A stretch of DNA of 64,000 nucleotides from Marinosulfonomonas sp. (lineage in GTDB: Bacteria > Pseudomonadota > Alphaproteobacteria > Rhodobacterales > Rhodobacteraceae). The DNA is taken from assembly GCA_026984915.1 (NCBI GenBank), contig JALSRG010000056.1, positions 1 through 64,000 of the forward strand. Direction: 5' to 3'. Of this stretch, positions 4,550-34,190 are shown one piece after another. The notes under the pieces were generated by a model. It was not told the DNA's origin. It was given only the letters and a program-made list of their open reading frames with translations, and searched no databases. Position 1 is the stretch's first letter. The number at the start of each line of letters is the position of its first letter. The translations under genes were made by a program, and so were the position numbers.

Positions 4550-5011
4550 CTAATCTGCCGTTTCCGGTTCGCCGAACCTGGCCAGTATCCTGTGCAAAAT
4601 CTGGTCGCGCGTCTGCCGGTATGAATCAAGCCTCTGTTCCCGGCTGTCACCCAGTCCAGTCGGATCAAGGACCGGCCAATACTCCACCTCAAGATGATGC
4701 AAACGTGTCAAATCCAATACCCTGCGTTGGCTGGCAGGCGAAAGGGCGACGATCAGATCAAACCCGGACAGGTCATCGCCCCACTGCTCCATTTCATCGA
4801 ATGAACGCGCCCGGTGCCGCGAAAGCTCCACCCCTAATTCCTGACAGACGGCAATGCTGAAGCCATCAATCTCAAGGTCATTTTTCACGCCTGCTGATTG
4901 CACGTAAATCTTTTGACCGTAGAGTTTTTTCATAATCCCCTCGGCCATGGGCGAGCGCACGGCATTGTGGTCACAGCAAAACAGAACAGACGTAGGCTGC
5001 GACGCGTCCAT
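4550..5011 (-). CDS. Low-molecular-weight phosphatase / arsenate reductase-like protein
   Basis: A 153-residue protein with the LMW phosphotyrosine phosphatase P-loop near the N-terminus, CDHNAVRSP (C-X5-R-S), and a late DPTGLGDS segment supplying the general-acid Asp. This fold covers protein tyrosine phosphatases and thioredoxin-type arsenate reductases; the context is housekeeping with no ars genes, so a phosphatase role is more likely. It is the conserved partner of UPF0262 and infA in Rhodobacterales, starting two bases after the UPF0262 stop. Confidence 0.9.
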   Translation of the reverse strand: MDASQPTSVLFCCDHNAVRSPMAEGIMKKLYGQKIYVQSAGVKNDLEIDGFSIAVCQELGVELSRHRARSFDEMEQWGDDLSGFDLIVALSPASQRRVLDLTRLHHLEVEYWPVLDPTGLGDSREQRLDSYRQTRDQILHRILARFGEPETAD

Positions 5012-23309: not shown

Positions 23310-23522
23310 ATGCCAAAACGCCTGCGCCTGACCCGCCGATTTCCTGTGGCAATGACCGAAGATGGCTATCGCCGCTTGCGCCGCTTTGCACGAGACTCTG
23401 GCCTTGACGAGGGCGAAGCGCTGTCCTTTCTGTTCGAAAATTTCGACAGCGTCACGGATCATGAAAACCTTACACACCGCCTGCGCCTGTTCAATTCCGA
23501 ACTGGAGGCTCGTAAACGGTGA
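23310..23522 (+). CDS. Small conserved-looking protein after the acyl-CoA dehydrogenase
   Basis: A 70-residue basic protein, 23 bases after the dehydrogenase stop with a good AGGAAAGG ribosome site. It has a helical DGYRRLRRFARDSGLDEGEALSFLFEN-type layout (Asp/Glu in the middle, Arg at both ends) with no Cys, signal or membrane segment. The start TRRFPVAMTEDGYRRLRRFA looks like a ribbon-helix-helix or similar small DNA-binding fold, but I cannot assign it. Probably co-transcribed with the dehydrogenase. Confidence 0.7.
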   Translation: MPKRLRLTRRFPVAMTEDGYRRLRRFARDSGLDEGEALSFLFENFDSVTDHENLTHRLRLFNSELEARKR

Positions 23523-28637: not shown

Positions 28638-29306
28638 TCAGGCCGCGATCTTCTGTTGCTTCAACCAATCAAATGCGCCTGGCATGGTTTCACGTTCTGC
28701 CATGATGCGTTGCAACAGGGTCTGCGCCGATTTCGGCCCGAGTTGGGTGAAGAAATCGCTGTTTACATCCGGTTTCACCGCGCAGTGAAACAACACCCCA
28801 CTGTTGGCGTAAATCAGTTCCTCATCGGCAAAGCCAAGCGAAACAGCACAGGTGCGATGCCCTCCAAAGAAACGGCGGATGCCGCAATAGCCGTCCATTG
28901 CCTGTGCCGGTACCAGAACACTTGTTCCGCCAAAATATTTTTCAACAACCGGATCTTCAATCATAACCTGTTGATTATCCAGCAAGAAAAGCGCGTCGCA
29001 GTTTCCAAGCGCACCACCCGGAACATGCAGAACACCCCGGCGGGCCATCGCTTCGGCCGAAATTGCGATCCGTTGCAGGCGGGTTATTGACTGAAGACCA
29101 CCGTCATAGGTCTGGACACGCTCACCCAGCCGCAAGGTTTCCACTGGCTGCCAGCCGCAATCGGTCTCAACGAGCGTTCCGGCAACCAGCCCCGTCAGCC
29201 CGTCGCTGTGGGGCATGCTGCGCACCGACACTTGCTGATCCTGATGAGCATGGGCTTCGGTTGCAGGGGCACAATTTTCAAAACTGTCTTGTTTGGCAAC
29301 GAACAT
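28638..29306 (-). CDS. Hint-domain (hedgehog/intein-like) protein, probably non-splicing
   Basis: A 222-residue protein with a Hint_2-type domain: TGLVAGTLVETDCGWQPVETLRLGERVQTYDGG is block A (here only its core GLVAGTLVET and WQPVETLRLGERV are noted), followed by a mixed beta region and FGGTSVLVPAQAMDG, then an AGRTC-like patch. The position of the catalytic first Cys is Gly, and no N/C-terminal Asn-Cys pair follows, so autoprocessing looks lost. The chosen ATG has AAGGAGAT seven bases upstream; upstream in-frame starts have none. Stands alone on the minus strand amid plus-strand fatty-acid genes. Confidence 0.82.
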   Translation of the reverse strand: MFVAKQDSFENCAPATEAHAHQDQQVSVRSMPHSDGLTGLVAGTLVETDCGWQPVETLRLGERVQTYDGGLQSITRLQRIAISAEAMARRGVLHVPGGALGNCDALFLLDNQQVMIEDPVVEKYFGGTSVLVPAQAMDGYCGIRRFFGGHRTCAVSLGFADEELIYANSGVLFHCAVKPDVNSDFFTQLGPKSAQTLLQRIMAERETMPGAFDWLKQQKIAA

Positions 29307-29591
29307 TTCATATCTCCTTGGTTTCATTTCCGCGTTGTCTGCCGAGGTCGTTAGGACCTGTGGCGATACACTCAAGCAAGCGACCAGAATTCGCCGTAAT
29401 TTCGTCATACTTGCGGCGTTGCCAAGGCAGTGTTTCCAGATCATGAACAATTGGCGCGACCGAACCGGCATGAATGCGGGAATGCAAACGCCCGTTAAGC
29501 AGGCGCTAACCATAATAGGGTTGATGCAAGTGTATCGTTGCGGTGAATACACGTGATTCGGGCGGTTTACACGCCGGCCCAAGCCCCGAAA

Positions 29592-30242
29592 CTATCCAAA
29601 CCGGTAACCAAACCGGGCGATGTCAGCGCCACACAGTTCAGCAACAAGCCGCGCGTCTGCGTCGTTATAATATTCCCGATAGTCTTTCTTGCGCTCGGAG
29701 GCATTCACATGTTGCAGCGGGCCAATCTGAAACCCCAGATGTTCTTGCAACGGCTTTATATCCTCTTCCAGGTGCTCCAGCCGGACAAACAGATCACACC
29801 GTTCCTTGCCGGACCGGTCACGCACATAGTGGCCATATGGCGAAGCACGCGTGGTCAGGCCTATGTACTCATGGTTCAGAAAATCACTGAAATCATGCTT
29901 CCGGGCCAGCGAAACCGCCGGATGATCGAAATTTTGCCTGCGCAGCCAGTGGTAATAACTGACCATCCGGTCCCACGGGTTGCGCACCAGGGTAAAGATG
30001 AAAAAACTGTCAATTTCCTCGGGCTCCAGCAACCCATAGATGTCGGTCAGCCGCGCGTGTTTCCACAAACGGCCGGCGCTTGTGACCCCGTGCAAACGCT
30101 TGCGCCTCTTCTTTGCCTTTGGCGTATCCCCGATCAGAATATCGTCTTTCATCGCTCGCCCCTCCAGCGCCAGCGTCAGGGATGTGCCGCCGGTTTTCGG
30201 AATATGAACAAAAATATAGCGACGTCCGCGCGAAATGATCAT
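29592..30242 (-). CDS. Sulfotransferase family 2 domain protein
   Basis: A 216-residue PAPS-dependent sulfotransferase of the carbohydrate type. The 5'-phosphosulfate loop is FVHIPKTGGTSL at residues ~11-22, and the 3'-phosphate site is FTLVRNPWDRMVSYYHWLR. Such enzymes sulfate polysaccharides or small molecules; in Rhodobacterales they are often associated with surface polysaccharides. It begins just upstream of the Hint-like gene on the same strand, with a 285-base gap. A third-generation partner (export or glycan gene) is not seen. Confidence 0.9.
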   Translation of the reverse strand: MIISRGRRYIFVHIPKTGGTSLTLALEGRAMKDDILIGDTPKAKKRRKRLHGVTSAGRLWKHARLTDIYGLLEPEEIDSFFIFTLVRNPWDRMVSYYHWLRRQNFDHPAVSLARKHDFSDFLNHEYIGLTTRASPYGHYVRDRSGKERCDLFVRLEHLEEDIKPLQEHLGFQIGPLQHVNASERKKDYREYYNDADARLVAELCGADIARFGYRFG

Positions 30243-33142: not shown

Positions 33143-33405
33143 GCCGACAGGGAACGCGTCACTCACACCCCGCAACCGGCTGCGACCAAAGCCGCTGGCC
33201 GGAGAACAATAACATCTTCCAGATACATAAGGCTCAGAACCTGTTGATCCATGGTTCGCATCATTGGACGGCAAGCCACCCTGGATTGCCCGCAATCCGG
33301 TTCGCGCCCGACTCCGCCCCCGCCCCCCGACTTCGCCCCAAGGCGTAGACCCATAAACCACACGCCACCGGTTTGCCGGTTTATGAGGCAAGGCGCTGGT
33401 TATTA
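33143..33405. other. Gene-free DNA left of the inverted-repeat element
   Basis: Together with the element to its right this forms a 510-base stretch without a convincing gene. It has a C-rich patch (33305-33330, GACTCCGCCCCCGCCCCCCG) and several short frames on both strands, none with a ribosome binding site or family resemblance. Confidence 0.4.
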
Positions 33406-33676
33406 CCCAGGGTCAGGCCCCATTAATCCTGCGCCGTTGGTTTGACAGATTTTTCTTCTGACCAGGCACATCTGCGCAGTAATAGTGGTTCTATTCCAAG
33501 CAGATGTAACGCAGTCAGAGGGAAAATCCGTCAAATCCGCCAGGACGCTGTTTTCCCTTCATCTCAGCGGCGTGACGCGCTTGACAATGGAACCACCATT
33601 GGCGGCGTGTGTCAAACCCCTGATACTTCAGGAAAACAGCGCCAACTGTGCAGGATTAATGGGTCCTGACCCTGGG
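33406..33676. mobile_element. MITE-like structured element, 271 bp with 27-bp inverted ends
   Basis: The left end (33406-33432) begins CCCAGGGTCAGGCCCCATTA and the right end (33650-33676) is its inverted copy with 26 of 27 positions identical. Inside are successive hairpins: CATCTGC/GCAGATG (33469-33506) enclosing AATAG/CTATT; AGGGAAAA/TTTTCCCT (33519-33558); TTGACA/TGTCAA (33581-33615) enclosing AATGG/CCATT; CCTGA/TCAGG (33619-33632). CGCTGTTTTCC (33546-33556) can instead pair with GGAAAACAGCG (33631-33641), so two folds compete. No transposase gene. No target-site duplication is evident. Confidence 0.75.
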
Positions 33677-34123
33677 CCGGGCCATCAGACGGCGCGGAAC
33701 GGTTCTGGCCCAGATCCTGTCCATCTGCACGTCACCTTGCGCCGTGCGCGGCCCGCGTTCAGGGTTGAGCCGCCCATCATTCCAGGCCCGGATATATCCC
33801 GGTGGCAGACGGTATTTCGCCCTGTAGGAGGAACCCGGTGCGCTTTGGCGGATCTGGTGCTGCGACGCGGGGCTTTTCATGGCCCGTGGCCGGCGGCATA
33901 GCTGTTTGTGATCCCGTCCCGCGCGGGCAACCCAGCCGGTTTTGCCATTCACCGAAACACGCACGTAAACGCAGCCGCGGCTGTCTACATATTCCTTGCC
34001 GGTATAACCCGCAGGAGGAAATTCAGCCGGAGGCGTCACACCGCCGCGTGATCCGGCATTGGCCAGGCCGCCTGCCAGAGAGGTCAGAAACAGTATTGTT
34101 GCGGCTACCTTCAACCGGTGCAT
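33656..34123 (-). CDS. Exported protein of the SPOR-linked Rhodobacterales type
   Basis: A 155-residue exported protein: a signal peptide (MHRLKVAATILFLTSLAGGL) with cleavage near ANAG, then EFPPAGYTGKEYVDSRGCVYVRV and GKTGWVARAGRDHKQLCRRP (two Cys likely disulfide-bonded), and a C-terminal PPGYIRAWNDGRLNPERGPRT. This pattern recalls Rhodobacterales SPOR-domain proteins, though the SPOR part itself is missing or shortened. The ATG at 34123 has GGAG six bases upstream. The last residues (ARPRVRTH) and the TAA stop lie inside the right end of the inverted-repeat element, so the 3' end was probably remodelled by it. Confidence 0.78.
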   Translation of the reverse strand: MHRLKVAATILFLTSLAGGLANAGSRGGVTPPAEFPPAGYTGKEYVDSRGCVYVRVSVNGKTGWVARAGRDHKQLCRRPRAMKSPASQHQIRQSAPGSSYRAKYRLPPGYIRAWNDGRLNPERGPRTAQGDVQMDRIWARTVPRRLMARPRVRTH

Positions 34124-34190
34124 CGGGGTCTCCATGGTTTTTGGGAAACATGCCGTTTCGGCTCCGGTTAGTAAAGTAAAGAGTTTTCAA

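Follow-up and report, generated by a model that had tools for sequence, protein, structure and literature searches.

A two-armed, non-coding element with IS5-type ends, probably a MITE, in the Rhodobacteraceae and other alphaproteobacteria

The structured element at positions 33408-33674 of the window, i.e., the stretch of 64,000 nt of Marinosulfonomonas sp. DNA (genome G000) analysed here, is very probably a MITE of alphaproteobacteria that IS5-family transposases (IS427-like group) move in trans. It resembles a parasite on IS5 elements with a structured interior, the two-armed fold being retained in numerous marine bacteria. Ends, target, and partner are given by the sequences themselves, and mobilisation in trans by the partner IS is what they suggest. 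According to this explanation, an IS5-family transposase would bind the ends of the element and insert it at YTAR with duplication of TA. The core would be kept by compensatory changes, and the termini would vary between lineages. In active copies, the folded DNA (a cruciform or a single strand) may be required for mobility or for host factors; once inserted, copies would presumably decay freely.

Positions 33406-33432 match the reverse complement of 33650-33676 with a single mismatch in 27 bases, in agreement with the near-identical inverted ends (26 of 27 bases) described in a sequence-only reading of this DNA. The inverted repeat of the window element extends to approximately 35 bp at 91% identity. 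By comparison with other copies the element proper was delimited to 33410-33672 (GGG...CCC). The following features are distinguished:

33340..33359, plus strand: remnant of a second type of terminus (type B, see below), AAGGCGTAGACCCATAAACC, 48 bp upstream of the element, with 1 mismatch (chance expectation 0.01)
33408..33674, no strand assigned: whole element including the target-site dinucleotides, based on about 60 paired copies, alignment A1, and empty sites in relatives
33410..33440, plus strand: left terminal inverted repeat, GGGTCAGG.CCCATTAATCCTGC..., IS5-like transposon end and 5' side of the terminal stem, pairing with 33642-33672
33441..33535, plus strand: arm 1, a long imperfect hairpin (helices 2-4; covariance model R1)
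33481..33495, plus strand: apical hairpin of arm 1, AATAG-TGGTT-CTATT, whose unpaired flanks are conserved (alignment A1)
33536..33545, plus strand: mini-hairpin that separates the arms, TCC-GCCA-GGA (helix 6, paired in 98.6% of cells)
33546..33641, plus strand: arm 2, a long imperfect hairpin (helices 7-10)
33587..33599, plus strand: apical hairpin of arm 2, ATGG-AACCA-CCAT (helix 10)
33642..33672, minus strand: right terminal inverted repeat, from its pairing with the left repeat and the comparison of ends

No coding ORF is present inside the approximately 262 bp of the element, as had been supposed, and a minus-strand ORF at 33656-34135 runs 21 nt into its right end. Covariance model R1, which describes arm 1, matches the window at 33434-33546 with 119.8 bits. 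A weak match of the same model (16 bits, E 0.015) lies on the minus strand at 23422-23508 and is perhaps a decayed copy, perhaps a chance hit. Elsewhere in the window, the minus-strand ORF at 28638-29582 resembles a Hint-domain protein by eye and adjoins a sulfotransferase-like ORF (29592-30242).

A search of the own genome, along the lines proposed with the earlier reading, yielded 17 matches, two of them full copies and many partial, and several are located at contig ends, as repeats would give. In named genomes the 22-nt end is present in 104 stretches. Judged by record title, nearly all hosts belong to the Roseobacter/Rhodobacteraceae group, e.g., Thiosulfatihalobacter, Sulfitobacter, Lentibacter MAGs, Marinosulfonomonas, and Thalassovita, and the element also occurs on Roseobacter-group plasmids. 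Ends are carried by 23 of 395 genomes of the same family, compared to 0 for a reversed control pattern. The copy set was collected via exact ends, and many of the genomes searched are drafts. Between the target TAs, paired copies most often measure 262 bp (modal length), and the copy closest to that of the window (90% identity) is found in G006. Phage and viral collections gave no matches, and a phage or viral origin was rejected; no previously described family matching the element was found in Rfam or in the literature consulted.

Shortened and rearranged forms were observed as well. Deletion derivatives of 30 bp, TAGGGTCAGGACCCATTAATCCTGACCCTA, occur at L022 (~1219-1248), L041 (~4965-4994), and L099 (~586-615, ending in TT), with the interior as if deleted between TCCTG direct repeats. 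Near-identical remnants of 28-30 bp, TAGGGTCAGGACCCATTAATCCTGCACC-TA, were seen in L077, L083, L101, and L188 (2501-2530); they point to recurrent deletion or to a minimal unit that is mobile. In a subfamily comprising L090 and L112, the arm sequences are wholly different, with the ends and the arm-1 apex (CATAG-TGGTT-CTATG) being the same. Two copies of genome G273 (L233 and L234) are split by other IS, namely an IS630-type IS at a TA in arm 1 and an IS3-type IS in arm 2. The apparent autonomous copies of 1317 and 1434 bp in G273 were accordingly rejected as elements interrupted by IS630-type and IS3-type IS.

With few exceptions, YTA precedes the left end of a copy and TAR follows the right end, which defines the target as YTAR. 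The joined flanks of six copies of Sulfitobacter sp. M05 match uninterrupted sites in other Sulfitobacter genomes. In case of L057, the empty allele CATCTAAT stands against the occupied CATCTA[element]TAAT, with a single TA when empty, and the empty sites of L029 and L093 are consistent with this rule. Due to the single TA in the empty sites of relatives, the alignments support a precise insertion of the element with duplication of the 2-bp TA. The window copy itself is an exception, since its target-site dinucleotides are CA (33408-33409) and TG (33673-33674) instead of the TA/TA found in nearly all other copies, and this was counted against the MITE reading.

The partner was approached via weak end matches in annotated plasmids, which led to an IS5-like transposase adjoining such an end in Cereibacter. 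A transposase search of element-carrying genomes then revealed four identical 851-bp IS copies in G006, a complete genome of the same family. The left end of this IS is TAGGGTCAGGACCCATTAAT / TAGGGTCAGGACCCATTAATATG and the right end TAGGCTCAGGACTCATTGATT; the left end is identical to the consensus end of the family at 20 of 20 bases, and the flanks (YTA...TAR) represent the same target as that of the element. Its two ORFs match PF13340, PF01609, and NF033580 (E 7e-46), i.e., the IS5 family. Similar IS bearing ends of this kind were found in G066, G273, G308, and G293 as well as on the plasmids L263-L266. A length of 832-865 bp, a 2-bp DR, and two overlapping ORFs are characteristic of the IS427 group (PMC3281130). 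Based on size, 2-bp duplication, and two ORFs, the G006 IS probably belongs to an IS427-like group.

Beyond the ends, no significant similarity was observed between the interior of the element and the IS. No intact partner IS was found in the window genome, a draft of 127 contigs from which a multi-copy IS is easily lost, nor in G061-G063, though some of these hold many near-identical copies. Two other partners were considered and rejected. An IS630 partner is disfavoured by the absence of PF13358 from G000, and what looks like an IS630 pair in G273 turned out to be a copy of the element with an IS inserted in it; a Y1 partner (REPIN/RAYT) is disfavoured by the absence of PF01797 from G000. 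The multiple copies, the TA target, the empty sites, and a partner of the IS5 family that shares its end favour the non-autonomous mobile element, one of the two options named in the sequence-only reading.

The window strand folds with an MFE of -155.1 kcal/mol compared to -81.9 for shuffles (z -14; 0 of 200 shuffles as good), and the opposite strand is nearly equal in stability (-152.2). In 49 aligned copies the conserved architecture consists of terminal stem, arm 1, mini-hairpin, and arm 2, so that the internal hairpins recognised earlier are real and conserved. Two-sided changes occur at 57 of 99 pairs with 95.4% of cells paired; the element is multi-copy and its hairpins carry compensatory base changes. 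The number of cells with two-sided changes (406) compares to 94 in shuffled and 42-69 in slid controls. The fold, as judged from these alignments, appears to be under demonstrable constraint despite an interior that is not derived from an IS. The apical motif of arm 1 is also retained in the distant relatives L244, L246, L251, and L253. The loop of arm 2 is complementary to that of arm 1 (91.8% of cells paired, only one two-sided change), and the two apical loops represent a candidate kissing contact. Competing folds had also been proposed for the interior. The underlying 8-base complementarity between 33519-33526 and 33546-33558 does exist, but the ensemble has 33546-33558 paired solely with 33631-33641; at a probability of ~1e-13 the alternative is unpopulated and, by eye, not kept in other copies of A1, so that the idea of two mutually exclusive folds has to be abandoned.

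Compensatory changes could also arise from hairpin-templated correction, i.e., template switching between the arms of the quasi-palindrome, with a passive core, which we consider unlikely. Such a process would fit the strand symmetry of the pair changes and the outermost target pair (2-274), which in two G000 copies changed on both sides from TA/TA to CA/TG. However, recent copies vary on one side of a pair only: across 15 T. marinus copies that are almost identical, the pairs that vary within terminal repeats and core were changed one-sidedly and 0 two-sidedly, and the outermost pair (flanking target sequence) varies freely. These one-sided changes argue against a fast arm-to-arm correction and fit a relaxed constraint after insertion. 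Furthermore, loops and unpaired flanks (GCAGG...TCAAGG) are kept across families with wholly different stems, for which correction alone would not account.

According to a simple codon-score gene finder, from which the gene context was derived, 122 of 163 ends face the 3' end of a gene and 39 a 5' end, and convergent gaps between genes are preferred by the copies. This strong preference, together with the very stable fold, would be expected of a structured RNA (attenuator, terminator, or small RNA) that owes its spread to a benefit for gene expression. We regard such an origin as improbable, since both strands are equally stable, the termini match an IS5 element, and no Rfam match was obtained. 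In addition, G-U pairs do not exceed A-C: for the pairs common to the folds of both strands, 23 G-U face 21 A-C, and in 20 clustered rows 25 face 41, which argues against selection on a single RNA strand. Insertion orientation is likewise unbiased, with the stop codon at the canonical left end in 13 cases and at the right end in 15. From the symmetric wobble counts and the unbiased orientation we infer that selection acts on folded DNA and not on RNA. The riboswitch or attenuator reading offered earlier fails on the same grounds, its alternative fold being neither populated nor conserved.

Stop codons are frequent insertion sites of the proposed MITE. In 35 of 56 paired copies (approximately 60%), one end lies exactly in a stop codon that is restored as TAG, compared to 16% of safe YTAR sites; stratified by tetranucleotide, 34 such ends were observed and 10.8 expected. 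In L188, a 28-bp remnant provides a further, independent case according to the RefSeq annotation. At either end the target TA is followed by GGG, so that a TAA or TAG stop hit by the element is re-formed as TAG, and stop-codon insertions are therefore harmless and common. A separate mechanism that recognises translation termini and targets stop codons as such is, in spite of this excess, very improbable and was rejected as explained by gap composition, since within the gap actually hit stop-codon use (33) hardly differs from chance (30.7), the stop usually being the sole YTAR site in a short gap. With YTAR targeting, the excess comes from the tolerance of short gaps, most of them convergent.

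The core is not confined to one type of end. In G000, arm-1 model R1 also matches copies with a second, type-B terminus TAGGGCGTAGACCTATAAACC, of which 47 ends are present in this genome. In G001, a type-B-related end adjoins an IS5 transposase fragment; plasmids were searched for type-B ends without result. Next to the window element, 33340-33399 comprises the type-B remnant listed above and, after it, GGTTTATGAGGC, a short inverted sequence; this stretch may be a second copy that has decayed. Type-B ends (first 20 bases plus G) were also seen at L223 (3073-3125) and L231 (2604 onward), that of L223 being fused to an apparent ordinary terminator hairpin (CGCACAGC...GCTGTGCGTTTTTT).

Outside the Rhodobacteraceae, R1 matches L244, L245, L248, and five G676 copies of other alphaproteobacterial families. 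Among the relatives read, L244 and L248 have TAGGGTCAGGCCCCATA-like ends and the G676 copies TAGAGCATAATCC-like ends, and the apex GCAGGAA-loop-TTTCAAGG is common to L244 and the G676 copies. Partners may thus have been switched between lineages. Somewhat short of an even chance, in our estimate, is the further idea that the core represents an independent two-armed DNA hairpin module with fixed apical and internal-loop sequences, which switches IS5-family termini and partners and depends on its fold for mobility.

Among known systems, the IS427 group of the IS5 family (ISRhsp4-like elements, IS1248, ISPaes1) shares the terminal sequence TAGGGTCAGGACCCATT.AT, the 2-bp TA target duplication, and alphaproteobacterial hosts, but in contrast to these IS the element is without transposase and its interior is dissimilar beyond the ends. 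ERIC / RU-1, RUP, and Correia, which are TA-flanked MITEs, are likewise non-coding imperfect palindromes with TA at both ends and intergenic locations, often at gene 3' ends. The element is set apart from ERIC (127 bp) by its hosts and approximately twofold length, and has a two-armed core and an IS5 partner. RUP is linked to IS630-Spn1 (PMC2229807), whereas the partner here is of the IS5 family. The Caulobacter CcrM-associated intergenic repeats (CIR) are alphaproteobacterial and have two hairpin arms (PMC2229807), as does the element. However, CIR lack its terminal stem, and membership in CIR was rejected, because GANTC, the marker of CIR loops, is found in only 5 of 49 copies of the element and at scattered positions. 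REPIN / RAYT systems are similar in that inverted palindromic units form a structured mini-element, but differ from it in the Y1 transposase (PF01797, absent from G000), the TA duplication, and the DDE transposase partner. MITEPye1 of Paracoccus yeei is a MITE of the same order with a predicted stem-loop structure; its ends match IS1182-family elements and it is present in 1-3 chromosomal copies (PMC11578231). The element is very probably an IS5-family MITE with an unusually constrained non-IS core, which the partner would mobilise in trans.

Bacterial MITEs are often described by their stable folds, and a partner, empty sites, and covariation are seldom shown jointly. With the partner IS now named, mobilisation in trans becomes testable. 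The stop-codon insertions illustrate how an element can spread through compact genomes with little damage. The constrained non-IS interior raises the question of whether a DDE transposase or a host factor uses the folded interior. If the core indeed is an independent module, it would represent a lineage of structured mini-elements whose mobility requires the fold, either as cruciform or as single strand.
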